This document shows positions 7,571-18,863 of a DNA stretch of 64,000 bases, in pieces (within the stretch, counting starts at the first letter, position 1; each line of letters starts with the position of its first letter). Source of the DNA: Lachnospiraceae bacterium (GTDB lineage: Bacteria; Bacillota; Clostridia; Lachnospirales; Lachnospiraceae); the NCBI GenBank assembly GCA_030524705.1, contig JAUNGD010000006.1, forward strand, positions 35,031 through 99,030. Reading direction: 5' to 3'. The translations under genes and the position numbers were made by a program. The notes below the pieces were generated by a model. The model searched no databases, was not told the origin of the DNA, and saw only the letters and a program-made list of their open reading frames with translations.

Positions 7571-8200
7571 TTATAAATTCATCCGCTTTTCCAGATAGCC
7601 CTGTATCACATCCACACATCCCTGGTACCCCAGCACATCCGTCCTCAGGCACAGGTCATAGTTCTCCGGATTCTTCCACTTCTTTCCCGTATGGTACTTA
7701 TAATAGTCGCTTCGATACCGGTTGATACTTTTGATATGGCGGTTGACCCCCAGCTCATCTGTCTGCATGATCGCCATTTCCCGCTTAAAGCAGGCCTCCG
7801 GGGAAGCAGACAGAAAAATACTGATGGCATTTTTCTGATCCTTCAGCACAAAATCCGCCGCCCGGCCCAGGACTACAAAGCTTTCCTTTTCCAGAAGTCC
7901 CCGGAGTACCTTGCCCTGATATTCAAACAGATTCCGGTCTGACAGAAAATTACCGCTCTCCGGCGGAATCGTCTCTCCGTTGTAAACTGCCTTAGACACC
8001 TTATAAAGAATCGTCTTCTTAACGTCCTGATCTGCCTTTGCAAACAGCTTTTCATTGATTCCTGAATCCTCAGAAGCCAATCTCAAAAGCTTCCGGTCAT
8101 ACAGAGCAATACCCATCTGCTCTGACAGCATTTTCCCGATTTCCGTGCCGCCTGAGCCACAGGTTCTTGTAATACATATTGCAAAATAATTTTTTTTCAT
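7571..8200 (-). CDS. Cytidylate kinase-like family protein
   Basis: A 209-aa P-loop protein of the cytidylate-kinase-like group. The start ICITRTCGSGGTEIGKMLSEQMGIALYDRKLL is a CMK-like nucleotide-binding loop in which GSGGTEIGK replaces the classical GxxxxGKS/T. RYRSDYYKYHTGKKWKNPENYDLCL is the conserved C-terminal segment of this family. It starts 9 nt after livF of the second Liv operon with a good AGGAGG site, so it is its last cistron. It is not the housekeeping Cmk. The substrate is unknown, and the link to amino-acid transport is unexplained. Confidence 0.8.
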   Translation of the reverse strand: MKKNYFAICITRTCGSGGTEIGKMLSEQMGIALYDRKLLRLASEDSGINEKLFAKADQDVKKTILYKVSKAVYNGETIPPESGNFLSDRNLFEYQGKVLRGLLEKESFVVLGRAADFVLKDQKNAISIFLSASPEACFKREMAIMQTDELGVNRHIKSINRYRSDYYKYHTGKKWKNPENYDLCLRTDVLGYQGCVDVIQGYLEKRMNL

Positions 8201-8209
8201 GACTACCTC

Positions 8210-8914
8210 CTACTGACCCAGATATGCTTTTTTTACACGTTCATCGTTCAAAAGATCCTGCGCGTTCCCGCTGATGGAAATTGTGCCTGTCTCCAATACA
8301 TAGGCCCGGTCTGCAATAGATAATGCCATTTTGGCATTCTGCTCGTTGAGAAGTACCGTGATTCCGGCTTCATGAATCTCTTTAATAATAGAGAACACTT
8401 CTTTTACCAGGAGAGGTGATAATCCCATGGACGGCTCATCCATCAGGATAATGCTGGGCTTTCCCATCAGTGCCCGGCCCACCGCAAGCATCTGCTGCTC
8501 TCCTCCGGAAAGTGTGCCCGCCAGCTGCTTGCGGCGCTCCTTCAGTCTCGGAAATTTTTCATATACATCCTTTATGGCATCATTCACTTCATCCTTGTTT
8601 TTGCTGGTATACGCTCCCATCTGCAGATTATCCTCCACAGACATTTCCGGGAATACATGACGGCCCTCCGGCACATGAGCGATCCCCAGAGTGATCATTT
8701 TGGAGGGATCCGTCTTCAGCAGATCCGTGCCATTGTATGTGATGGAACCGCTTCTGGCTTTCACCAGGCCGGATATTGTATGCAGGGTCGTCGTCTTTCC
8801 TGCTCCGTTCGCCCCGATCAGCGTCACGATCTCTCCCGGTTTTACTGTAAAGCTAATTCCCTTGATTGCCTCTACGGCACCATAATTTACATATAAATCC
8901 TTTATCTCTAACAT
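8210..8914 (-). CDS. livF: ABC transporter ATP-binding protein LivF (second system)
   Basis: A 234-aa LivF ATPase. Walker A is GANGAGKTT, the signature is LSGGEQQMLAVGRAL and Walker B is IILMDEPSMGLSP. The ATG at 8914 follows AGGAGGGG, 10 nt after livG. A longer frame from 8956 would run into livG and has no ribosome site. The usual LLIEQN motif reads LLNEQN here, a small deviation next to the switch region. Paralogous to the livF at 5477-6196. Confidence 0.9.
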   Translation of the reverse strand: MLEIKDLYVNYGAVEAIKGISFTVKPGEIVTLIGANGAGKTTTLHTISGLVKARSGSITYNGTDLLKTDPSKMITLGIAHVPEGRHVFPEMSVEDNLQMGAYTSKNKDEVNDAIKDVYEKFPRLKERRKQLAGTLSGGEQQMLAVGRALMGKPSIILMDEPSMGLSPLLVKEVFSIIKEIHEAGITVLLNEQNAKMALSIADRAYVLETGTISISGNAQDLLNDERVKKAYLGQ

Positions 8915-8924
8915 AGCGCCCCTC

Positions 8925-9707
8925 CTAATCCTCGTCCTTTCCGAGATATGCTTCAATAACCTTAGGATTGTTCGCTATCTCCTCCGGTGTGCCGCTGGCG
9001 ATCGTCACTCCATAGTCAATGACCTGAATCCGCTCACAGATCTTCATGACCAGGGACATATCGTGTTCAATCAGTAAAACAGAAATACCGAACTCGTCCC
9101 TGATATGGTTAATAATATCGAGAAGCTCCGCCGTCTCCGTCGGGTTCATTCCGGCAGCGGGCTCATCCAGCAGCAAAAGCTTCATTCCAGTAGCCAGAGC
9201 CCGGGCAATCTCCAGACGTCTCTGCTCCCCGTAGGGAAGGTTTTCTGCTATATAACCTGCCTTCTCTTCCAGGTGTACGATCTTCAGAAGCTCCAGCGCC
9301 CGCTCATCCGTCTCTTTTTCCTCATTCCAGAACTTTCCGGATCGAAAAATCGCAGATACGAGAGAATATTTCATGTCCTTATTCATTGCCACCTTGACGT
9401 TCTCCAGTACAGAAAGCTTTTTAAACAGTCTGATATTCTGAAACGTTCTGGCGATCCCAGCCTCCACCACCTGATGGGTCTTCTTGCCGTTCATCTTGTC
9501 GCCACAAAGGTAGTACGCCCCTTCCGTGGGCTGGTATACGCCGGTCAGCAGGTTAAACACCGTAGTCTTTCCCGCTCCGTTGGGGCCAATGAGTCCGATC
9601 AGTTCTGACTCGCCAATCTCCATATTGAAATCATCCACAGCCTTCAGCCCTCCAAACTGGATACCGAGGTGAGACGCCTTTAATACCGGTACTTTTTGTG
9701 CAGCCAT
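8925..9707 (-). CDS. livG: ABC transporter ATP-binding protein LivG (second system)
   Basis: A 260-aa LivG ATPase. Walker A is GPNGAGKTT, the signature is LPYGEQRRLEIARAL, Walker B is LLLLDEPAAGMN and the switch is LIEHDMSLVM. Its ATG follows the livM stop directly (TAAATG). It acts with LivF in the cytoplasm to energise the second Liv-type permease. Confidence 0.92.
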   Translation of the reverse strand: MAAQKVPVLKASHLGIQFGGLKAVDDFNMEIGESELIGLIGPNGAGKTTVFNLLTGVYQPTEGAYYLCGDKMNGKKTHQVVEAGIARTFQNIRLFKKLSVLENVKVAMNKDMKYSLVSAIFRSGKFWNEEKETDERALELLKIVHLEEKAGYIAENLPYGEQRRLEIARALATGMKLLLLDEPAAGMNPTETAELLDIINHIRDEFGISVLLIEHDMSLVMKICERIQVIDYGVTIASGTPEEIANNPKVIEAYLGKDED

Positions 9708-10691
9708 TTATTCTTTGTCCCCCTTTCCTGCGATGCGCCGAAGCACTTTGCTCAGGGAAAATTCCCATCTTCCGAAAATTCCGCCGGGCCTGAAAATCAT
9801 AATCAATACAAGAACCACCGAGTAGCCCAGCATACGGTACTTTGCAAAAGCACGCATGGCCTCCGGCAGCGCTGAAAGGAAGGTTGCGCCGATGATAGAG
9901 CCTGTCATAGAACCCGTACCTCCAATGATAACCTCGGTCAGAAATTCCGCGGAATACATAAAATTAAAAGAGGTCGGAATCATAGCCGTCATATAATGAG
10001 CATAAATCGCTCCGGCAACTCCCGCAAAGAAAGCGGATACTGTGAAAGTCATGACTTTATAAAAGGTCACATTGACGCCTGAAGCCGCCGCCGCAATATA
10101 ATCCTCCCGAATCGCTTTTACGGTCCGTCCAAACCTTGACCGGATGAACATATACATGATGGTAACGCAGACCACCATCACCCAGAAGGCCCAGTAAAAA
10201 TTCGACAGTTTCGTGATACCTGACATTGTCCGGCCGCCGCCGGTAATTTCAAAATTCGTAAACGCCACCCGGATGATCTCCGCAAATGCCACCGTAACGA
10301 TGGCAAGATAATCTCCGCGAAGCTTCAGCGTGGGAATACCCACCAAAACGCCCGTGATTCCCGCCGCGATTCCCCCTGCCAGAAGCGCCAGCAGGAACAG
10401 CAAAAATGTGGGAACTCCTTTTTCTGCCAGCGCATTCGTCAAAATGGCGGAAGCATACGCTCCTACGGACATAAATCCCGCATGGCCCAGAGAAAATTCT
10501 CCCATGATGCCCACCAGAAGGTTCAGGGATGTAACCATAATAATGGTATAGCATGCCGTTGTGGCAATTCCCTTAAAATAATCGGTTCTCGTTCCAAAAA
10601 TCCCTGTCTCAAAAAGCGCATACAGAGCGGCAAACAGAAGGAGCAGACCGATAAAATTGATCACATAGTTTATTTTTATTTTTTTCGGCAT
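9708..10691 (-). CDS. livM: ABC transporter permease LivM (second system)
   Basis: A 327-aa membrane permease. It has TSLNLLVGIMGEFSLGHAGFMSVGAYASA and GDYLAIVTVAFAEIIRV, both LivM hallmarks, and the coupling loop RTVKAIREDYIAAAASGV. The start follows GGGAGGAG, 16 nt after livH. It is about 47 residues shorter than the first LivM, which has a longer N-terminus. Confidence 0.92.
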   Translation of the reverse strand: MPKKIKINYVINFIGLLLLFAALYALFETGIFGTRTDYFKGIATTACYTIIMVTSLNLLVGIMGEFSLGHAGFMSVGAYASAILTNALAEKGVPTFLLFLLALLAGGIAAGITGVLVGIPTLKLRGDYLAIVTVAFAEIIRVAFTNFEITGGGRTMSGITKLSNFYWAFWVMVVCVTIMYMFIRSRFGRTVKAIREDYIAAAASGVNVTFYKVMTFTVSAFFAGVAGAIYAHYMTAMIPTSFNFMYSAEFLTEVIIGGTGSMTGSIIGATFLSALPEAMRAFAKYRMLGYSVVLVLIMIFRPGGIFGRWEFSLSKVLRRIAGKGDKE

Positions 10692-10707
10692 TTTCGTTCT
10701 CCTCCCT

Positions 10708-11595
10708 TCACACCTTCTCGCCTACGTTTTTACCGAGAATACCGGAGGGCTTAATCAGCAGTACGACAATCAGAATACTGTAGGTGATAGCCTCATACCA
10801 GCCCGGCGCCACGTATACCTTAACGAGAATCTCAATCAGTCCGATGATCAGTCCCCCCAGCATTGCACCGGGAATGACTCCGATGCCGCCCAGCACGGCC
10901 GCGATAAAAGCTTTAATGCCCATCATGGAGCCCATATCCGTCGTACATCTCGGATATGTGGAGCAGTACATCATTGCCGCCACAGCCGCCAGAGCCGAAC
11001 CGATGGCAAAGGTGATCGTAATGATCTTATCCACATTAATCCCCACAATGGTCGCAGCCTCCCGATCCTGGGGCACCGCCCGCATTGCCTTTCCGAGCTT
11101 CGTCGTCTGCACAAAAAGCGTCAGGATGACCATAATGGCAATTCCGATTCCCAGAGTCAGCAGATATTTCATCTGGATCTTGGCTCCGAAAATCTCGATC
11201 ATAGGAAGGTCGAAGATCTTAACCACTGTCTTGGGGTTGCCGCCGAACAGAACCATCGCCAGATTTTCCAGGAAAACGCTCATGGCAAGAGCTGTAATCA
11301 GCGCTGAGATGGAGCCTGAGTTACGCACCGGCTTGTATGCGATCCGCTCTACCAGGACGCCTACCACGGTACATACGACGATGGCAAGAAGCACCGCCAT
11401 CCAGGGCGGCATCCCGTAACTGACCATCAAAGGCGCCGTATAAAACATTGTGTACGCTCCCACCATGATGAAATCACCGTGGGCAAAATTGATCATACGC
11501 AAAATACCGTATACCATCGTATAACCAAGAGCAATCAGCGCATAGATAGCGCCCTGATTCAATCCATTTATGATACTTTGTATTAATATTGACAC
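10708..11595 (-). CDS. livH: ABC transporter permease LivH (second system)
   Basis: A 295-aa LivH permease. It begins at a GTG (11595) six bases behind GGGAGG. A more upstream ATG at 11637 would lie in a hairpin region without a ribosome site and add 14 residues that do not look like the family. SIINGLNQGAIYALIALGYTMVYGILRMINFAHGD and IAAVLGGIGVIPGAMLGG are the family signatures. Confidence 0.9.
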   Translation of the reverse strand: MSILIQSIINGLNQGAIYALIALGYTMVYGILRMINFAHGDFIMVGAYTMFYTAPLMVSYGMPPWMAVLLAIVVCTVVGVLVERIAYKPVRNSGSISALITALAMSVFLENLAMVLFGGNPKTVVKIFDLPMIEIFGAKIQMKYLLTLGIGIAIMVILTLFVQTTKLGKAMRAVPQDREAATIVGINVDKIITITFAIGSALAAVAAMMYCSTYPRCTTDMGSMMGIKAFIAAVLGGIGVIPGAMLGGLIIGLIEILVKVYVAPGWYEAITYSILIVVLLIKPSGILGKNVGEKV

Positions 11596-11620
11596 TGTTT
11601 TCCTCCCTCTAAGCTCCGCG

Positions 11621-11661
11621 GCAGCCGGAAAAAGCACGGCTTTCGGGCTGCTTCCGGCTGC
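11621..11661. other. Intercistronic hairpin between livK and livH
   Basis: GCAGCCGGAA (11621-11630) pairs perfectly with TTCCGGCTGC (11652-11661). It lies between the binding-protein gene and livH. Together with the next hairpin it may protect the upstream message or reduce read-through. Confidence 0.6.
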
Positions 11662-11677
11662 TGCGAAACTCTCTTTT

Positions 11678-11717
11678 AAAGAAAGGTTCCTGCCGGAAAT
11701 CCTTCCGGCAAGAACCT
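11678..11717 (-). terminator. Partial terminator/attenuator after livK
   Basis: On the minus strand AGGTTCTTGCCGGAA (11717-11703) and TTCCGGCAGGAACCT (11698-11684) form a stem with one mismatch over a 4-nt loop, then TTCTTT. It sits 13 nt after the livK stop. Such hairpins usually let the binding protein be made in excess over the permease. Confidence 0.7.
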
Positions 11718-11730
11718 GAGCTTCGCTATT

Positions 11731-12879
11731 TTATGCTTCCGGTGCGATTGTCTGCAGCCATTTGATTTTTCCGTCTTCATATGTATTTACAACTACCGGC
11801 TTGATCGCATCACCCTTCTCATCCAGATAGATGTCTCCTGCCACACCGCTGAACTTCATCTCCGTCATACCGCTTACAAGAGAAGCCGTGTCAGAGCCGC
11901 CGCCATTCTTTGCCGCCTCTACCAGCATATACATTGCATCATAGTACAGAGCTGCGCAGGCATTCAGGCTTTCATCGCCGTATTTCTCTGTATACTTGGT
12001 TACAAATTCCTGAACCGCAGGAGCCGTATCCTCGGATGAATAATGGTTCGTAAAGTAGCAATCCACGAAATAATCTTCCAGACCGGAGGTGTCTGCGCCG
12101 TCCCAGCCGTCGCCGCCCATGATCGCTCCTTCAAAGCCGGCGTCTCTTACCTGCTGTACAAGAAGCGGTACGGTATCCAGGAAGCACGGATAGAATACAA
12201 AGTCTGCTCCGGAACCTACTGCCTGAGTTGCCTGAGCGGTAAAGTCCGTATCTGTTGTGGTACACTCACCTACGTATGCTACTTCAATTCCCAGCGCCTC
12301 CGCGCTTTCAATAAATGCATCCTTCAGGCCGTTGGAGTAGTCATCGTCCTTTGCGTAGATCACTGCCGCTGTTGTAAAGCCCTGCTCATTTGCAAACTGA
12401 GCCGCCATCTTGCCCTGATACGGATCAATAAAGCAGTTACGGAAAATCGTCGGTCCGATTTCTGTTACCTGGGAATTGGTAGCTCCGGTGGCCAGAAGAA
12501 GCATATCGTCCTCAGCGGCCAGCTCTGCCATCGGAAGGGTCACTGCTGAGAAGAAGGAACCAACGATTGCTTCCGGAGCTTCAGCTTTCAGAGAATTGTA
12601 TGCATTGACTGCCTGCTTTGCATCCTTAGCATCATCCGCTACCTTTCCGCCGTTTACAATTTCAATCTTGTACTCGGAATCAGAAGCATTGATTTCTTCT
12701 ACCGCCATGTCGATCGCATTCTGAGCGCCCTCTCCGTACACTGCAGAGCCGCCGGTCATGGCACATACGGCGCCGACCTTGATCACATAATCTTCTTCCT
12801 CTGCAAATACTGTAGTTCCTGCTGCCATGGATGCTGTCATAGCAATCGCCAGTGTTGCACTAATCACTTTCTTTTTCAT
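11731..12879 (-). CDS. livK: Liv-type substrate-binding protein (second system)
   Basis: A 382-aa type I solute-binding protein. The signal peptide MKKKVISATLAIAMTASMAAGTTVFA is followed by EEEDYVIKVGAVCAMTGGSAVYGEGA, the first fold strand and ligand loop. There is no lipobox cysteine. It is the first gene of the second Liv operon, behind AGGAGGAG, a strong promoter and a leader hairpin. Ligand unknown; probably a branched-chain or similar amino acid. Confidence 0.9.
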   Translation of the reverse strand: MKKKVISATLAIAMTASMAAGTTVFAEEEDYVIKVGAVCAMTGGSAVYGEGAQNAIDMAVEEINASDSEYKIEIVNGGKVADDAKDAKQAVNAYNSLKAEAPEAIVGSFFSAVTLPMAELAAEDDMLLLATGATNSQVTEIGPTIFRNCFIDPYQGKMAAQFANEQGFTTAAVIYAKDDDYSNGLKDAFIESAEALGIEVAYVGECTTTDTDFTAQATQAVGSGADFVFYPCFLDTVPLLVQQVRDAGFEGAIMGGDGWDGADTSGLEDYFVDCYFTNHYSSEDTAPAVQEFVTKYTEKYGDESLNACAALYYDAMYMLVEAAKNGGGSDTASLVSGMTEMKFSGVAGDIYLDEKGDAIKPVVVNTYEDGKIKWLQTIAPEA

Positions 12880-12918
12880 AAGTTCTCCTCCTCATAATAA
12901 ACTCTGAACATAAGGAAA

Positions 12919-12946
12919 GGCGCCTGATAATCTCTTATCAAACGCC
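12919..12946 (-). other. Leader hairpin of the second Liv operon
   Basis: GGCG and TGATAA on one side pair with TTATCA and CGCC on the other, around a small internal loop. It sits in the transcribed leader of livK, about 40 nt before the start codon. No T tract follows, so it is more likely a stability or regulatory stem than a terminator. Confidence 0.45.
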
Positions 12947-12965
12947 CTCGTTCATCTATGTGACG

Positions 12966-13164: not shown

Positions 13165-13193
13165 TTGACATTTCTTTAAGACCGCTATAAAAT
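13165..13193 (+). promoter_or_regulatory. Promoter of the D-amino acid/5-oxoproline operon
   Basis: Perfect TTGACA (13165-13170) with TAAAAT (13188-13193) at 17 nt, or TATAAA at 15 nt. Transcription would begin around 13200, at the foot of a strong terminator hairpin. Confidence 0.7.
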
Positions 13194-13200
13194 GCAGGCA

Positions 13201-13246
13201 AAGCACACGGCAAGGAGGTCGCACTTCCTGCCGTGTGCTTTTTTAT
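13201..13246 (+). terminator. Promoter-proximal terminator (attenuator candidate)
   Basis: AAGCACACGGCA (13201-13212) pairs perfectly with TGCCGTGTGCTT (13229-13240), extended inward by GGAGG/CTTCC and followed by a run of six T. It lies between the predicted start site and the transaminase gene, so it should stop transcription unless read through or prevented. No T-box or known riboswitch fits in the space. Confidence 0.8.
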
Positions 13247-13275
13247 TTCTAAAATAAATTTCAGGGAGGCAGCTT

Positions 13276-14121
13276 ATGAAAACACTGGGATATTATAACG
13301 GAACATTCGGTGAGCTTGATGAAATGAGCATTCCTATGAACGACCGTGTCTGCTGGTTCGGAGACGGGGTCTATGATGCAGGCCCTGCGCGAAATTACAA
13401 AATTTTTGCAATTGACGAGCATGTGGACCGCTTTTTTAACAGCGCCGGACTTCTGAAAATTCAGATGCCTGTCACAAAGCAGGAGCTAAAGGATATTCTT
13501 CAGGAAATGGTATTAAAAATGGATACCGGAAACCTCTTCGTATACTATCAGGTCACCCGAGGCAGCGGCATTCGCAACCATGTTTTTACGGAAGGCCCCG
13601 GAAATCTGTGGATCACCCTTACTCCGGCTGAAATTTCCGATGGTCTTACACCGATCAGGCTTATCACAACGGAAGACACACGTTTTTATCACTGCAACAT
13701 CAAAACATTAAATCTGATTCCTTCCGTCATGGCATCCCAGAGAGCCAGAGAGGCCGGATGTCAGGAATCCGTTTTCTACCGTCCCGGAGGACGCGTGACA
13801 GAATGTGCCCACAGCAATGTACATATCATTCAGGACGGTATGCTGCGCACTGCTCCCACTGATAACCTTATCCTTCCGGGCATTGCCCGGGCTCACCTGA
13901 TCCGTATCTGCAAACAGCTTGGCATCCCGGTAAATGAAACTGCCTTTACACTGGACGACCTCTATCATGCGGAGGAAGTTATTGTGACCAGTTCCAGCAA
14001 TCTCTGTCTGTACGCAAATGAAATTGACGGCAGACCCGTGGGCGGAAGACAACCGGACATGCTTGAAACGATCCGAAAGGCGCTTCTGGATGAATTTTAT
14101 GAAGCAACCAAAGAGGCGTAG
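13276..14121 (+). CDS. dat: D-amino acid transaminase
   Basis: A 281-aa PLP fold type IV aminotransferase. It has the D-amino acid transaminase carboxylate trap RGSGIRNH (Arg95, Arg100, His102), aligning with RGxxxRxH of the Bacillus enzyme, GDGVY with Tyr33, and the PLP lysine in NIKTLNLIPS (Lys143). TECAHSNV is the phosphate-side segment. This argues against the branched-chain L-transaminase that general annotation may give. It interconverts D-alanine plus 2-oxoglutarate with D-glutamate plus pyruvate. It leads an operon with 5-oxoprolinase and D-glutamate cyclase genes, so D-glutamate is the likely shared metabolite. The start follows GGGAGG. Confidence 0.85.
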   Translation: MKTLGYYNGTFGELDEMSIPMNDRVCWFGDGVYDAGPARNYKIFAIDEHVDRFFNSAGLLKIQMPVTKQELKDILQEMVLKMDTGNLFVYYQVTRGSGIRNHVFTEGPGNLWITLTPAEISDGLTPIRLITTEDTRFYHCNIKTLNLIPSVMASQRAREAGCQESVFYRPGGRVTECAHSNVHIIQDGMLRTAPTDNLILPGIARAHLIRICKQLGIPVNETAFTLDDLYHAEEVIVTSSSNLCLYANEIDGRPVGGRQPDMLETIRKALLDEFYEATKEA

Positions 14122-14124
14122 CCT

Positions 14125-14865
14125 ATGGAAGGACTTCGAATACTTCCTGCCGGCGACCGGGCGCTGGTAGCCGAGTTCGGAAATATCATTGATGAAGGGA
14201 TAAATAATCAGGTTCACGCTTTGGCGAAAAAGCTCGCCTCAGAAGCTGTGCCCGGCGTATTGGAGCTGGTTCCTACTTTCCGCTCTCTCCTGATCTATTA
14301 TGATCCTTCTTCCATCACTTACCATGATCTGGCACAAAGGATACGGCAGCTTTCGGAGAGTTCTGCAGCAGCAGGCAGTTCCGGCAGGCGCATCTGGAGG
14401 ATTCCCTGCTGCTATGGTTCCCATTTTGGTCCTGACCTCCCGGCTCTGATCCGGTACACGGGATTATCCCGGGATGAAATTATTGCTATCCACAGCTCTG
14501 TGGATTACAAAATATACATGCTTGGATTTTTACCGGGATTTGTCTATCTGGGCGGCCTTGACAACCGGATTGAAATCCCCCGGCTGCCTTCGCCCCGGGT
14601 TCGGATACCGAAGGGTTCCGTGGGAATCGGCGGAAACCAGACCGGTGTTTATCCCCTGGATTCTCCCGGAGGCTGGCGGCTGATCGGCAGTACGCCCGTC
14701 GATTTTTACGACCCGCAGAGAGAGAAGCCAATTCTCTGCGATGCCGGTGATTATATCCGCTTCGTGCCGATTACATCATCAGACTATTATGATATCCGCC
14801 AGATGATTCTGCGCGGTACATATCGGCTGACGGTTCAGGAAGGAGGGGGTTCTTATGTCAGTTAA
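14125..14865 (+). CDS. pxpB: 5-oxoprolinase subunit PxpB
   Basis: A 246-aa PxpB (KipI-type) protein. Conserved stretches are LPAGDRALVAEFG at the start, GFLPGFVYLGGL, RLPSPRVRIPKGSVGIGG and QTGVYPLDSPGGW. With PxpA and PxpC it forms the bacterial ATP-dependent 5-oxoprolinase, which opens 5-oxo-L-proline to L-glutamate. It begins 3 nt after the transaminase stop and overlaps pxpC by 11 nt. Confidence 0.93.
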   Translation: MEGLRILPAGDRALVAEFGNIIDEGINNQVHALAKKLASEAVPGVLELVPTFRSLLIYYDPSSITYHDLAQRIRQLSESSAAAGSSGRRIWRIPCCYGSHFGPDLPALIRYTGLSRDEIIAIHSSVDYKIYMLGFLPGFVYLGGLDNRIEIPRLPSPRVRIPKGSVGIGGNQTGVYPLDSPGGWRLIGSTPVDFYDPQREKPILCDAGDYIRFVPITSSDYYDIRQMILRGTYRLTVQEGGGSYVS

Positions 14866-15745
14866 AGTCCTGGTTCCCGGACCGCTTACTACAATACAGG
14901 ATCTGGGCCGTTTCGGTTATCAGAAATCCGGTATTCCATGTTCCGGAGTCATGGATCAGCAGGCATACCGGGCCGCCAACGAGCTGCTGGGCAACTGCCA
15001 CGGCGAAGCAGTTCTGGAACATACGTTGATCGGCGGCAGCTACTATTTTGACTCCGATACAGTCATCGCCCTTACCGGCGCCGACATGGCAGCCTCTCTA
15101 AACGGTTCCCCCTGTCCCGTCGGGCGTCCGGTTCCCATCCGCGCCGGAGATACCCTTTCCCTTGGCATTGCTAAACGAGGATGCCGGACATATCTGGCAG
15201 CGGCCGGCGGCTTTGATGTACCTCCGGTTCTGGGAAGCCGTTCTACAAATCTGAAGTGCGGATTCGGCGGATATCAGGGCCGTGCCCTGGCTTCTGGAGA
15301 TGTTCTGAAACTTGGCATACCAGGGGTACCCTACGAAAAAATAAAGGAGAACCGGATCCCATGCCCGGACTATCCTTCCGATATAATCGTTCGGGTCATA
15401 GAAGGCCCTCAGGCGGAGCTTTTCACACCGCAGGGGCTGGATACCTTTTACTCCGCTTCCTACACGGTATCGGAGCAAAGTGACCGAATGGGCTGCCGCC
15501 TAAATGGTACAGCCATCGAAAGCATCCATGGAACAGACATCGTCTCCGATGGCATCGTATTTGGCTCGGTACAGGTCACCTCTTCCGGACAGCCCATCGT
15601 ACTGATGGCAGACCGGCAGACCACCGGGGGATACGCCAAAATCGCTACTGTGATCACAGAAGACCTGCCGCTGCTGGCTCAGGCCCGGCCGGGAGACACG
15701 ATATATTTTAAAAAACAGCCATTTTCATCAGGAGGTCAGCTATGA
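14855..15745 (+). CDS. pxpC: 5-oxoprolinase subunit PxpC
   Basis: A 296-aa biotin-dependent carboxyltransferase-like protein (KipA/PxpC). It starts VKVLVPGPLTTIQDLGRFGYQKSGIPCSGVMD, the family signature, and carries SEQSDRMGCRLNG and GSVQVTSSGQPIVLMADRQTTGGYAKIATV. It partners with PxpB and PxpA. Translation is coupled on both sides: an 11-nt overlap with pxpB and an ATGA overlap with the next gene. Confidence 0.93.
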   Translation: MSVKVLVPGPLTTIQDLGRFGYQKSGIPCSGVMDQQAYRAANELLGNCHGEAVLEHTLIGGSYYFDSDTVIALTGADMAASLNGSPCPVGRPVPIRAGDTLSLGIAKRGCRTYLAAAGGFDVPPVLGSRSTNLKCGFGGYQGRALASGDVLKLGIPGVPYEKIKENRIPCPDYPSDIIVRVIEGPQAELFTPQGLDTFYSASYTVSEQSDRMGCRLNGTAIESIHGTDIVSDGIVFGSVQVTSSGQPIVLMADRQTTGGYAKIATVITEDLPLLAQARPGDTIYFKKQPFSSGGQL

Positions 15746-16527
15746 ATTATTCCGATATGAAGCCCAGGGAAGTTCGGGCACTCATCCGGGAGGGGAAGAT
15801 TACGGGCCCCACTGCCGGAATGTGCGCCGGCTATGCCCAGGCAAACCTCGTCATTCTGCCAAAGGAACTGGCGTATGATTTTCTTTTATTTACTCAGCGC
15901 AATCCGAAATCCTGTCCGCTCCTGGAGGTCAGTGATACCGGCAGCCGTTTTTTGCATACCATCGCCGACGGCGCTGACGTCACCACCGATATTCCCCGTT
16001 ACCGGGTATACCGGGATGGTATACTCACAGAGGAACGAACCGATATCTCCGGCCTGTGGCGTCCTGACTTTGTCAGCTTCCTGATCGGCTGCAGCTTTTC
16101 CTTTGAAGCTGCTCTTCTCGATGCGAATGTTCCCGTCCGCCATATCGAAGAGAATCGAAATGTTCCTATGTATAAAACAAATATCCCCTGTATATCCGCC
16201 GGCAGCTTTCATGGCACAATGGTAGTCAGTATGCGCCCTGTTCCTCATGAGCTGGTTCCAAAGGCCGTACTGATTACCGGAGAGATGCCCCGGGTCCATG
16301 GAGCCCCTATACACATCGGGACACCGGAGGCTATTGGCATTTCGGATCTTTCACATCCTGACTTCGGAGATATGGTCACGATCCGCGATGGAGAGGTACC
16401 GGTCTTCTGGCCCTGCGGTGTCACTCCTCAGAATGTAGTCATGGAGTCCAGACCGCCTCTGGCGATCACCCATGCTCCTGGGCATATGCTTATCACAGAT
16501 GTCAAGAACACAGAATTGAAATATTGA
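15742..16527 (+). CDS. DUF1445 family, D-glutamate cyclase N-terminal-type protein
   Basis: A 261-aa DUF1445 protein, often labelled putative hydro-lyase. Typical are RALIREGKITGPTAGMCAGYAQANLVILPK, DFVSFLIGCSFSFEAALL, PMYKTNIPC and FHGTMVVSMRPV, plus the late WPCGVTPQ. The same family forms the first half of the mitochondrial D-glutamate cyclase (human DGLUCY), which turns D-glutamate into 5-oxo-D-proline. The other half is encoded here as a separate gene at 17405. It starts within the pxpC stop (ATGA). The activity is inferred from family and context. Confidence 0.8.
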   Translation: MNYSDMKPREVRALIREGKITGPTAGMCAGYAQANLVILPKELAYDFLLFTQRNPKSCPLLEVSDTGSRFLHTIADGADVTTDIPRYRVYRDGILTEERTDISGLWRPDFVSFLIGCSFSFEAALLDANVPVRHIEENRNVPMYKTNIPCISAGSFHGTMVVSMRPVPHELVPKAVLITGEMPRVHGAPIHIGTPEAIGISDLSHPDFGDMVTIRDGEVPVFWPCGVTPQNVVMESRPPLAITHAPGHMLITDVKNTELKY

Positions 16528-16602
16528 CACGCCTTTTGAAAAACTCAACGGTATTACCGGAATTCAACGGTTTTTACGAAATAAGACATGGGAGGAATTT
16601 TT

Positions 16603-17385
16603 ATGCGTCAGATTGATTTGAACTGCGACCTCGGCGAAAGCTTCGGCAACTATAAATGCGGCATGGATGAAGAGGTTCTTCCTTTTATCACCTCCGCCAA
16701 TGTGGCCTGTGGTTTTCACGCTTCAGACCCTCTGGTTATGCAGCAGACTGTTTCCGCTGCCCGTGAAAATCATGTGCGTGTCGGCGCACACCCCGGCTTT
16801 CAGGACCTTGTAGGGTTCGGACGGCGGGCTATGAGCCTTCCGGCAAAAGAAATTACCGCCATTGTGGAATATCAGATTGGTGCACTAAATGCGTTCTGTG
16901 CCGCAAATAAAATAAAACTCCAGCATGTAAAACCCCACGGCGCCCTCTACAATATGGCAGTCAGGGATGAGGTCATCGCACAGGCCATCTGCGAAGGCAT
17001 TGCCGCCGTAGATCCTGATCTGATTCTGCTGGCTCCGGCCGGCAGTGAGATGATCCTGGCTGCCGAACGGCTGGGGCTCGCGGCGGCAAAAGAGGTATTC
17101 GCCGACCGTGCTTATGAGGAGGACGGTTCACTGGTATCCCGCAGCAAACCTGGGGCAATGATTACTGATGAAGCTTCCGCCATCCGGCGTGTCCTTCAGA
17201 TAGTTCAAAAGGGAACAGTAACAGCCATCACAGGAAAGGAGATTGAAGTTGAAGCGGATTCTGTCTGCGTTCATGGCGACAGTCCCTCCGCCCTCGCTTT
17301 CGTCAAACAGATTCACTTGTCACTTGTTCAGGAAGGAATTTTACTGGCACCTATGAGCCAGGTCATTTCCGCTCCCACAGAATAA
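16603..17385 (+). CDS. pxpA: 5-oxoprolinase subunit PxpA (LamB/YcsF family)
   Basis: A 260-aa PxpA. It has DLNCDLGESFGNYKCGMDEEVLPFITSANVACGFHASDP at the start, VGAHPGFQDLVGFGRR and HVKPHGALYN, the conserved metal/substrate motifs of the family. The ATG at 16603 follows GGGAGG. A frame 15 nt longer has no ribosome site. It completes the PxpABC set, though it is separated from pxpBC by the DUF1445 gene. Confidence 0.93.
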   Translation: MRQIDLNCDLGESFGNYKCGMDEEVLPFITSANVACGFHASDPLVMQQTVSAARENHVRVGAHPGFQDLVGFGRRAMSLPAKEITAIVEYQIGALNAFCAANKIKLQHVKPHGALYNMAVRDEVIAQAICEGIAAVDPDLILLAPAGSEMILAAERLGLAAAKEVFADRAYEEDGSLVSRSKPGAMITDEASAIRRVLQIVQKGTVTAITGKEIEVEADSVCVHGDSPSALAFVKQIHLSLVQEGILLAPMSQVISAPTE

Positions 17386-17404
17386 AACATACGAGGTGAT
17401 CATT

Positions 17405-18277
17405 ATGTCCAATGCAGCCCGCTGCCTTCCACCATCTGACCGCGATTATTCCATTGAAGATATTGTACTGCGGTATTCCGGCCGGGGAATGACAATTCTT
17501 CAGCGATATCTCCACTCCGGTTACTGCGACAGAGCGGCAAAAAAGCTTTTGGCGTTGGAGCGCGGCAATATCTTGCTGACTACGGGCTTTTGCGTATCCG
17601 GCAGAGCCGAAACCGACGGACCGCCCGGAACGGTCATCCTCGCCCATGCGCTGAAAAAGCTCGGCTTCCATCCTGCCATTGTGACAGATCAGATCTGCCG
17701 CGGGCTCTTTGAGTCTGAAGGCTTTCCGGTGGAATATGCCGCCGTGGATGCGGATGCTCGTATTTACCAGAAACTTTTGGATCGCTACCGCCCGGTCTGC
17801 CTCATCGCCATTGAGCGCTGCGGCCGGAACCTGGAAGAAGATTATGCAAATATGAAGGGAATCAGCATTGCCCGCCAGACGGCACAGATTGATATTATGT
17901 TCGACCTGGCGGCCCGGGAAGGAATCCTGACCATCGGGATCGGCGATGGAGGCAATGAAATCGGCATGGGAAATCTTAAAGATGTGATTGAAGAAAAGCT
18001 GAGCCTGATCCCATGTACGGTCAAAGTCAATGAACTGATCATAGCCACTACCTCCAACTGGGGAGCGTACGCTCTGGCCGCCTCTCTGTCCATAAAAAAG
18101 CACCAGCATCTGCTGATGTCCTACCACGAGTTAGCCGAATATCTGGAGCGGATCGTTGCCCTGGGCTGCATCGACGGCGTTACCAAAAAGCAGGAACCCA
18201 GCGTTGACGGCTTTCCGCCGGAGATCGAACGTGAAATTCTCGGGACACTGCATCTGATTTCTTCGGCAGCCTCCTGA
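17405..18277 (+). CDS. DUF4392 / D-glutamate cyclase C-terminal-type protein
   Basis: A 290-aa protein of the D-glutamate cyclase-like C-terminal family. Recognisable are SGRGMTILQRYL, NILLTTGFCVSGRAETDGPPG, VTDQ near the centre, LIAIERCGRN and LTIGIGDGGNEIGMGNL. In human DGLUCY this domain follows a DUF1445 domain in one chain. Here the two are separate genes flanking pxpA, which supports a two-subunit cyclase acting on D-glutamate and 5-oxo-D-proline. The ATG at 17405 is preferred over a GTG at 17396 because of the ribosome site GAGGTG. Confidence 0.8.
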   Translation: MSNAARCLPPSDRDYSIEDIVLRYSGRGMTILQRYLHSGYCDRAAKKLLALERGNILLTTGFCVSGRAETDGPPGTVILAHALKKLGFHPAIVTDQICRGLFESEGFPVEYAAVDADARIYQKLLDRYRPVCLIAIERCGRNLEEDYANMKGISIARQTAQIDIMFDLAAREGILTIGIGDGGNEIGMGNLKDVIEEKLSLIPCTVKVNELIIATTSNWGAYALAASLSIKKHQHLLMSYHELAEYLERIVALGCIDGVTKKQEPSVDGFPPEIEREILGTLHLISSAAS

Positions 18278-18401: not shown

Positions 18402-18863
18402 ATGGATGCACTTGATCACAAAATTCTGTCACTTTTAAAACAAAATGCCCGTGTAAAAGCATCTGAGATCAGCCGTGAAGTCCACCTATCCGTCTCCTCG
18501 GTTATCGAACGGATCCGTAAGCTGGAAGCCTCCGGCGTGATCCAGTCCTATACGATCATCACAGACGAAGCGCTGATTGGCAACGATCTGACCGCCCTGA
18601 TGGAGATCAGTCTGGAGCACCCGCGTTTTACAGAAGATTTCGTACGCTATGTGCACAAGAACCCCCATATCGTTTCCTGCTATTATCTCACCGGGGAATT
18701 TGATTATATGCTTAAGATCTGCTGTCATTCTTCCAGAGAGCTGGAGGAAATCCATCGCGAGATCAAACAGCAGGATGGTGTACGCATGACTAAAACTCAT
18801 TATGTACTGCGCACAGAAAAAAATATCTATTCTTCCCTGCCGGATGATCCGGGGGAAAAATAG
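18402..18863 (+). CDS. Lrp/AsnC-family transcriptional regulator
   Basis: A 153-aa regulator with an N-terminal helix-turn-helix (DHKILSLLKQNARVKASEISREVHLSVSSVIERIRKLEASGVIQSYT) and a C-terminal RAM ligand domain (from about residue 65, GEFDYMLKICCHSSRELEEI). It follows the cyclase gene by 124 nt in the same direction and probably senses an amino acid and controls this operon. The start follows AAAGGAA. Target and ligand are inferred from position only. Confidence 0.88.
   Translation: MDALDHKILSLLKQNARVKASEISREVHLSVSSVIERIRKLEASGVIQSYTIITDEALIGNDLTALMEISLEHPRFTEDFVRYVHKNPHIVSCYYLTGEFDYMLKICCHSSRELEEIHREIKQQDGVRMTKTHYVLRTEKNIYSSLPDDPGEK

Follow-up and report, generated by a model that had tools for sequence, protein, structure and literature searches.

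Results

The dat-pxp-DUF4392 locus

In this study, we analysed a stretch of 64,000 nucleotides (nt; hereafter the window) from the draft genome of a Lachnospiraceae bacterium (GenBank assembly GCA_030524705.1, contig JAUNGD010000006.1, positions 35,031 to 99,030 of the forward strand), with a focus on an operon joining a D-amino-acid transaminase-like gene (dat), the 5-oxoprolinase genes pxpABC and the families DUF1445 and DUF4392. The genome, G000 in the following, comprises 3.87 Mb in 145 contigs and is 88.3% complete. Six open reading frames (ORFs) follow each other on the + strand between positions 13276 and 18277 in the order dat-pxpB-pxpC-DUF1445-pxpA-DUF4392, and all six proteins exceed the curated Pfam cut-offs (Table 1). 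From dat to DUF4392, the genes are overlapping or closely spaced, with a gap of 3 nt, overlaps of 11 nt and 4 nt, and gaps of 75 nt and 19 nt, if the preferable starts are used for pxpA (ATG at 16603, preceded by GGGAGG, in an ORF opening at 16588) and DUF4392 (ATG at 17405, in an ORF opening at 17396). The gene order and tight packing described in a first-pass annotation of this DNA are thereby confirmed, as is its claim that both domain families of the animal D-glutamate cyclase DGLUCY, PF07286 and PF14336, are present as separate genes. The subunits PxpA, PxpB and PxpC are all encoded within this one locus; PxpC stays below the cut-off of the equivalog model NF045499 (256.6 vs. 500), and the DUF4392 protein has no NCBIfam match.

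Table 1. Features of the dat operon, its leader and its neighbourhood in the window.
Feature	Position	Strand	Evidence or remark
dat, D-amino-acid transaminase-like class IV aminotransferase	13276..14121	+	PF01063 155.4 bits
pxpB, 5-oxoprolinase subunit	14125..14865	+	PF02682 262.1 bits; TIGR00370 above cut-off
pxpC, 5-oxoprolinase subunit	14855..15745	+	PF02626 332.1 bits; TIGR00724 above cut-off
DUF1445 (PF07286), proposed 5-oxoproline racemase	15742..16527	+	PF07286 236.6 bits (cut-off 25)
pxpA, 5-oxoprolinase subunit	16603..17385	+	PF03746 351.3 bits; NF003814 above cut-off
DUF4392 (PF14336), proposed metal-dependent D-glutamate cyclase	17405..18277	+	PF14336 251.1 bits (cut-off 27.9)
Promoter-like site of the dat operon, TTGACA-17-TAAAAT	13165..13193	+	11/12 consensus matches
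Leader intrinsic terminator	13200..13247	+	18-nt arms 13200-13217 and 13224-13241, then T run
ANTAR-type hexaloop hairpin, CGGC-AAGGAG-GTCG (loop A1, G4; closing C-G)	13208..13221	+	overlaps the 5' arm of the terminator
Lrp/AsnC-family regulator	18402..18863	+	PF01037, PF13412; downstream of DUF4392, same direction
Divergent leucine, isoleucine and valine (LIV)-type ATP-binding cassette transporter	8210..12879	-	substrate-binding protein 11731-12879; permeases 10708-11637 and 9708-10691; ATPases 8925-9707 and 8210-8956
PF13189 cytidylate-kinase-like gene, last in the LIV gene row	7571..8200	-	profile match

Nested genome content

Co-occurrence was examined in samples of the genus (25 genomes), the class (245 genomes) and the family (150 genomes), with G000 included in all three. 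In the genus, 13 genomes match DUF4392, 14 DUF1445 and 16 PxpA, each set being contained in the next. The respective numbers are 10, 18 and 29 for the class, with DUF1445 in 9/10 genomes carrying DUF4392 (p 6e-11), PxpA in 17/18 carrying DUF1445 (p 1e-17) and PxpA in 9/10 carrying DUF4392; for the family they are 10, 12 and 26, with 8/10, 12/12 and 9/10 for the same pairs. Relatedness is not accounted for in the Fisher p values (3e-7 to 1e-17), which serve as a guide only. Apart from a few exceptions, the families are thus nested across genomes, a genome with DUF4392 also having DUF1445 and one with DUF1445 also having PxpA. Such nesting fits a flow from D-glutamate via DUF4392 and DUF1445 to PxpABC, because a later step of a route is useful alone and an earlier step needs the later one. 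Among the exceptions, G216 of the class sample (84% complete) has DUF1445 without PxpA. In the family sample, G326 was scored without DUF1445 and PxpA by the whole-genome search despite a partial DUF1445 gene in its locus at a contig end (L066, on a contig of 3547 bases), and in G344 pxpA lies near a contig end (L082).

DUF1445 with and without DUF4392

DUF1445 occurs without DUF4392 in 14 genomes over the three samples. The fetched stretch holds pxpA, pxpB and pxpC together in eight of them (L036, L040, L041, L042, L044, L087, L088, L089) and not all three in the other six (L037, L038, L039, L043, L085, L086), several of which are cut by contig ends. On plasmids, pxp genes adjoin DUF1445 in 5 of the 11 records read out of 240: those of Lactiplantibacillus, Klebsiella, Bartonella and Paracoccus combine it with pxp genes, a biotin carboxylase gene and an NRAMP transporter gene, and that of Azospirillum oryzae with pxpABC and a branched-chain-type importer. 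Different ring-opening enzymes appear elsewhere, namely a hydantoinase B/oxoprolinase gene in Acidovorax and, two genes off a divergent DUF1445 copy, a dihydropyrimidinase gene in Agrobacterium. Four records are misfits: the stretch read in Mycetohabitans shows no ring-opening-enzyme neighbour, and beside DUF1445 the others have gamma-glutamyltransferase and diaminopropionate ammonia-lyase genes (A. brasilense), an amidase gene (Thioclava), or acetoin dehydrogenase genes and pxpA farther along (Sinorhizobium). As it is partnered with different ring-opening enzymes, a role of DUF1445 as ring racemase would account well for its distribution.

We dropped the idea that PxpABC acts as a biotin-carboxylase system here, since the window operon has no carboxylase gene; such genes do occur in other DUF1445 operons. 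A separate arrangement was seen in L086 (G353, no DUF4392 match), with DUF1445 near a dat-like gene and PF01042 and EamA-type genes, possibly an alternative source of substrate.

Conserved residues in DUF1445 and DUF4392

Three cysteines of DUF1445, C58, C117 (in GCSFSFE) and C225 (in FWxCGVTPQ), are invariant in 37/37 aligned proteins (37 of 39 sequences, the near-duplicates L017 and L019 being omitted); solved relatives of the family are 3DB9 and 2PIF. Cofactor-free racemases of the two-cysteine type use two catalytic cysteines that face each other.

In DUF4392, by comparison, none of the cysteines in the window protein is conserved across all 32 aligned sequences (32 of 33; L031, a partial ORF, was omitted), and six acidic residues, E72, D74, E140, D184, E188 and D271 (numbered from 17396), are invariant in 32/32. 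A two-metal site closing a lactam ring would be chemically reasonable here, with dihydroorotase as an analogy for the closure of such a ring at a metal site. Between the DUF4392 profile and eight glutamate racemases no similarity was found (hhalign probability 1.6%). The solved relative TON_0340 likewise has six invariant acidic residues, through which it binds Mn, and is a Mn-dependent phosphatase in vitro according to the available part of its description (PMC5132392); the two sets of residues were compared by number.

Recurrence in other genomes

In total, 29 clostridial DUF4392 loci were fetched, from 11/12 other congeners with a match and from 9/9 other genomes above the cut-off in each of the class and family samples. 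Not in this set are the DUF4392 gene of G022, which is in two fragments and was counted as present, G144 and G407, which score below the cut-off and were excluded, and L022, found in a scan with a single DUF4392 protein, which seems to duplicate G002:C80 and was left out of the counts. In the 12 kb to either side of DUF4392, contig ends cutting some loci, we found DUF1445 in 21, pxpC in 20, pxpB in 19, pxpA in 18 and dat in 18 of the 29 loci, along with a LIV binding protein gene in 11 and a PF13189 kinase-like gene in 10. The gene order is shuffled between loci; in L031, L065 and L067, for example, one strand carries LIV genes, the PF13189 kinase-like gene (between livF and dat), dat, DUF4392, pxpB, pxpC, DUF1445 and pxpA. 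Around DUF4392, nine of 43 plasmid records were read, and DUF1445 is nearby in three: two Pseudoalteromonas megaplasmids with the order GH3-DUF1445-pxpA-DUF4392-dat and one Sinorhizobium meliloti record (4 kb off). The neighbourhood singled out by the first-pass annotation, DUF4392 and DUF1445 beside pxp genes, hence recurs in other Clostridia and, as DUF1445-pxpA-DUF4392-dat, in Pseudoalteromonas.

In a FastTree phylogeny of 42 DUF4392 proteins, operon-linked members fall at three distinct positions, and at two of these the operons include dat: the window together with Pseudoalteromonas (split support 0.90), a separate clade of L023, L027, L031 and L065-L067 (support 1.00), and L030, an operon without dat, among proteins otherwise found alone. 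Since unlike DUF4392 lineages are repeatedly joined to the same partners, a shared function can be argued, and the linkage looks functional.

Further DUF4392 neighbourhoods were seen aside from these. Two DUF4392 paralogues cluster with genes for an aldehyde dehydrogenase and an NAD(P)-dependent oxidoreductase on rhizobial and Paraburkholderia plasmids (L048, L049, L051), in L048 and L051 also with a gene annotated as selenocysteine synthase (TIGR03576 below cut-off in L048); no DUF1445 lies in these stretches, which we read as a different DUF4392 pathway. In two genomes of one genus (L024 by tblastn, L029 by Pfam), DUF4392 adjoins genes for an amidase-like protein (PF12671) and a D-Ala-D-Ala carboxypeptidase-like protein (PF13539).

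Dat and the substrates that may feed the operon

The top NCBIfam matches of Dat are D-amino-acid transaminase models, both below cut-off (TIGR01121, 208.7 vs. 277.45; NF005209, 212.4 vs. 320). None of the 245 class genomes passes the curated TIGR01121 cut-off; dat was counted in that sample at 200 bits, a threshold set post hoc in the score gap between 206 and 145 and passed by 18/245 genomes. The motif RGSGIRNH had been taken in the first-pass annotation as the trap of a D-transaminase. Its RxH part stands, as it aligns with that of the D-amino acid aminotransferase 3DAA and is kept in 15/15 aligned operon-linked Dat proteins, and the model scores fall short of the assignment. We take RxH to be the carboxylate-binding motif of D-amino-acid transaminases.

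Hints on what enters the operon come from its surroundings. In G206 (L023), pxpA and pxpB flank an alanine racemase gene; in G211 (L027), such a gene comes directly 3' of pxpA. A sodium:alanine symporter gene is found immediately 5' of dat in G426 (L069), and the best model for the Pseudoalteromonas GH3 gene is a beta-N-acetylhexosaminidase, below cut-off (181.5 vs. 207). Based on these genes and the Dat motifs, D-alanine would be the likeliest entry substrate.

A leader with possible nitrogen control

Upstream of dat, a promoter-like site is followed by an intrinsic terminator and an overlapping hexaloop hairpin (Table 1). TANAAT is found at the promoter position in 11/11 aligned genus leaders, window included, and the promoter scan overall finds no excess (6 sites vs. 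a shuffle mean of 6.3). The leader (13194-13290) folds with a z score of -4.23. Among 21 upstream regions (20 loci and the window), a terminator lies at the same spot in 13, i.e., in the window, ten congeners and, from other genera, L070 and L023, with differing stem letters; nine of these elements were found by pattern and four by eye (L017, L018, L023, L070). The closing C, A1, G4 and closing G are invariant in 13/13 aligned leaders, which were chosen for having the element. A 14th element, GGC-AAAGGC-GCC, lies farther upstream in L069, before the symporter gene.

This architecture resembles the ANTAR antitermination targets of eut, nas and ami leaders, in which an A1/G4 hexaloop (consensus AGCAANGRRGCUY) overlaps the 5' part of a terminator in front of nitrogen genes, as far as the available part of the source describes them (PMC3369931). 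An ANTAR gene is present in 25/25 congeners (a single copy in 23, with three copies in G019 and two in G020) and in all but one of 33 genomes searched, the exception being G211, whose dat leader lacks the element. It lies directly 3' of the glutamine synthetase gene glnA in 3/3 loci with both genes Pfam-scanned (G000, G012, G206), and in G206 glutamate synthase comes next after this pair. By motif scan, a C-closed A1/G4 hexaloop occurs in 4/8 ANTAR-locus leaders (L090, L092, L093, L094). In L090-L093, Pfam identifies the gene that follows the leader as glnA; in L094-L097, the ORF at this position is similar in size and location and was not Pfam-scanned. In G000 (L090, contig C139), glnA, the ANTAR gene and a diaminopimelate epimerase gene stand in a row.

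Several results speak against control of this kind. An ANTAR target requires a pair of hairpins, P1 and P2 (PMC3369931, available part), whereas the dat leader has only the P2-like one, no P1 hairpin being found upstream and only 14 nt lying between the -10 element and the hexaloop hairpin in the window. The hexaloop and terminator are missing from 7/21 regions (L021, L027, L030, L031, L065, L067, L071), although the stretch examined in L021, L030 and L071 was internal to the operon instead of preceding its first gene. The resemblance seen in the glnA leaders comes from the motif scan, because a sequence-only model of the dat leader matches 0/8 ANTAR/glnA loci at E up to 10. In the window, this model finds one site, the training one, and in 24 other loci it finds L013 and L070 (training set), L069 (E 0.011, new) and, weakly, L031 (E 3.4); the dat leader reaches the gathering score of no Rfam family. 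With 12 of the 13 window places found by a loose hexaloop-plus-terminator scan inside ORFs and only the dat leader intergenic, the motif alone is not specific. Taken together, ANTAR-type nitrogen antitermination is a likely candidate for the control of the dat operon.

Discussion

A proposed route from D-amino acids to L-glutamate

The gene content described here could form a one-way route that leads from D-amino acids to L-glutamate at the expense of ATP, with DUF4392 as cyclase and DUF1445 as racemase, a proposal drawn from sequence comparison to which we give an even chance. As judged from its family, Dat would transfer the amino group from D-alanine or another D-amino acid onto 2-oxoglutarate, yielding D-glutamate. 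DUF4392, as a putative metal enzyme, would then close D-glutamate to 5-oxo-D-proline, an activity known for DGLUCY that we assign to this domain, DUF1445 would racemise 5-oxoproline via a pair of its invariant cysteines, and PxpABC, by its known activity, would open 5-oxo-L-proline to L-glutamate, the ATP cost probably rendering the route one-way. L-glutamate could then enter general nitrogen metabolism. The leader terminator and the ANTAR-type hexaloop may keep transcription in check until nitrogen control lifts the block, and the neighbouring Lrp/AsnC protein and LIV-type importer might add amino-acid sensing and uptake, respectively.

This division of labour is favoured by the nested distribution, by invariant cysteines in DUF1445 only, by the acidic residues of DUF4392, and by the association of DUF1445 with ring-opening enzymes where DUF4392 is missing. 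A link from D-alanine or D-glutamate to L-glutamate had already been suggested in the first-pass annotation; it gains support from the alanine racemase genes in two operons, the symporter gene in one, and the Pseudoalteromonas DUF1445-pxpA-DUF4392-dat row beside GH3. The same annotation had pointed to a stereochemical gap, to be bridged either by a PxpABC accepting both forms of 5-oxoproline or by a DUF protein acting as racemase, and of these options nesting and cysteines favour a DUF1445 racemase. The more far-reaching version, in which DUF1445 is a 5-oxoproline racemase, the operon an ATP-driven D-to-L glutamate inverter, and human DGLUCY a protein whose N-terminal domain descends from a 5-oxoproline racemase and whose C-terminal metal domain is the cyclase, is tentative, and its chance appears somewhat less than even.

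A number of observations weigh against these proposals. G194 of the class sample, which is 100% complete, has DUF4392 without a DUF1445 or PxpA match and is a clean exception to the nesting. On the protein level, the DUF1445 profile shows no similarity to eight glutamate racemases (hhalign probability 1.5%), and a comparison of its two halves revealed no internal repeat (hhalign probability 0.4%). DUF4392 stands without DUF1445 and pxp genes in the fetched stretch of 8/29 clostridial loci, and 6/9 DUF4392 plasmid records show other neighbours instead of DUF1445. The operon is without dat in L012 and L014, without all three pxp genes in G004 and without pxpA in G012, pxpA lying elsewhere in both of the latter genomes; moreover, dat and DUF4392 are found together in only 4/10 class genomes (p 0.003). 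The fused mouse protein converts D-glutamate to 5-oxo-D-proline and has no glutamate racemase activity in the available part of the report (PMC5339696). With a racemase domain in the protein, a less clear-cut product would be expected; the racemase activity reported absent is that on glutamate, which leaves room for racemisation of 5-oxoproline. Finally, glutamate racemase is present in 20/21 genomes tested, so that D-to-L conversion is already possible in a reversible way; what the operon would add is direction, with the ATP cost of PxpABC probably making the conversion one-way.

Alternative explanations

One alternative is that DUF1445 and DUF4392 jointly form a single D-glutamate cyclase and that PxpABC accepts 5-oxo-D-proline, which would require no racemase. 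Both domains are one polypeptide in animals, according to the available parts of two papers (PMC5132392, PMC5339696), and their co-occurrence is strong; since DUF1445 is found without DUF4392 in 9/18 class and 4/12 family genomes, with pxpA, pxpB and pxpC in the stretch of 8/13, and DUF4392 is also found without DUF1445 nearby, we consider a joint cyclase unlikely. Even less probable is a role restricted to disposal or repair, in which the operon would remove excess D-glutamate, or D,L-5-oxoproline that has arisen spontaneously, and would not exploit D-amino acids as nutrients. Such a role would suit the spontaneous cyclisation that gives rise to 5-oxo-L-proline (PMC13274462, available part) and the glutamate racemase already present, but Dat, alanine racemase, the sodium:alanine symporter and the LIV importer in or beside the operons, as well as the nitrogen-type leader, point to use. 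The reverse assignment, DUF1445 as cyclase and DUF4392 as racemase, agrees with the Pfam name of PF07286 ('D-glutamate cyclase') and with the label 'Asp/Glu/hydantoin racemase' of a Thermovirga lienii homologue (PMC5339696, available part) but is very unlikely, as DUF4392 has no conserved cysteine, six invariant acidic residues and a profile unlike glutamate racemase, and as DUF1445-pxpABC operons without DUF4392 would lack the needed racemase.

If a cyclase-racemase route does operate, anaerobes could use D-amino-acid nitrogen without an oxidase, and anaerobic clostridia would have a means of recovering nitrogen from D-amino acids, e.g., those of the cell wall. With this proposal, two widespread families of uncertain function, which also make up a human enzyme, are assigned definite roles that can be put to the test, and the fate of 5-oxo-D-proline becomes directly testable with a few purified proteins.

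Relation to known systems

DGLUCY (9030617O03Rik), the animal mitochondrial D-glutamate cyclase, consists of the same families, PF07286 and PF14336, as found in the operon. They are fused in animals, as already described (PMC5132392), whereas they are separate genes here, and the animal protein comes without a transaminase or 5-oxoprolinase, as far as the available text goes. For homologues of human proteins in gut bacteria, full-length and split, a table in the part available of a further paper contains a row GLUCM_HUMAN with the figures 0 and 6 (PMC11580864).

Among the control genomes, PF07286 matched only Bacillus subtilis, and PF14336 had no match in 14 of them, B. subtilis included. We take B. 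subtilis ycsI to be the DUF1445 gene, in a kip/pxp operon that presumably runs ycsF, ycsG, ycsI, kipI, kipA; to our knowledge, this operon has no dat gene. It has the manganese importer ycsG. Its union of pxpABC with ycsI, which parallels the operon described here, is already known (PMC10448178, available part), so that DUF1445 beside pxpABC is not new. In Corynebacterium glutamicum, pxpTABC likewise comprises 5-oxoprolinase genes and allows 5-oxo-L-proline to be used as a source of carbon and nitrogen; only pxpT, pxpABC and pxpR are named, and D-proline, D-glutamate and DUF1445 are absent from the main text as available (PMC13274462). In the literature searched, which lacks most subscription journals, we found no paper on a pyroglutamate or 5-oxoproline racemase, none linking D-glutamate cyclase with 5-oxoproline, none joining D-glutamate, 5-oxoprolinase, racemase and D-amino acid, and, among the titles listed, none devoted to an operon of this kind. 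The parts belong to known families; to the extent of this search, the assembled pathway, the way its tasks are divided and the leader are new.

Neighbouring genes and further elements

An Lrp/AsnC gene, as found downstream of the window operon, is near DUF4392 in 6/29 fetched loci. The PF13189 cytidylate-kinase-like gene, which accompanies the LIV transporter and the operon, has no obvious metabolic role. The divergent LIV operon likewise has a leader hairpin, of 15 pairs (12916-12949, - strand), shortly after a promoter-like site (12994-12966); by eye, it is a different element from the dat leader. Rfam matched only a tRNA and a glycine riboswitch in the window; the riboswitch aptamer, whose controlled gene would lie outside the window, is located at 145-232 on the - strand (64.6 bits).

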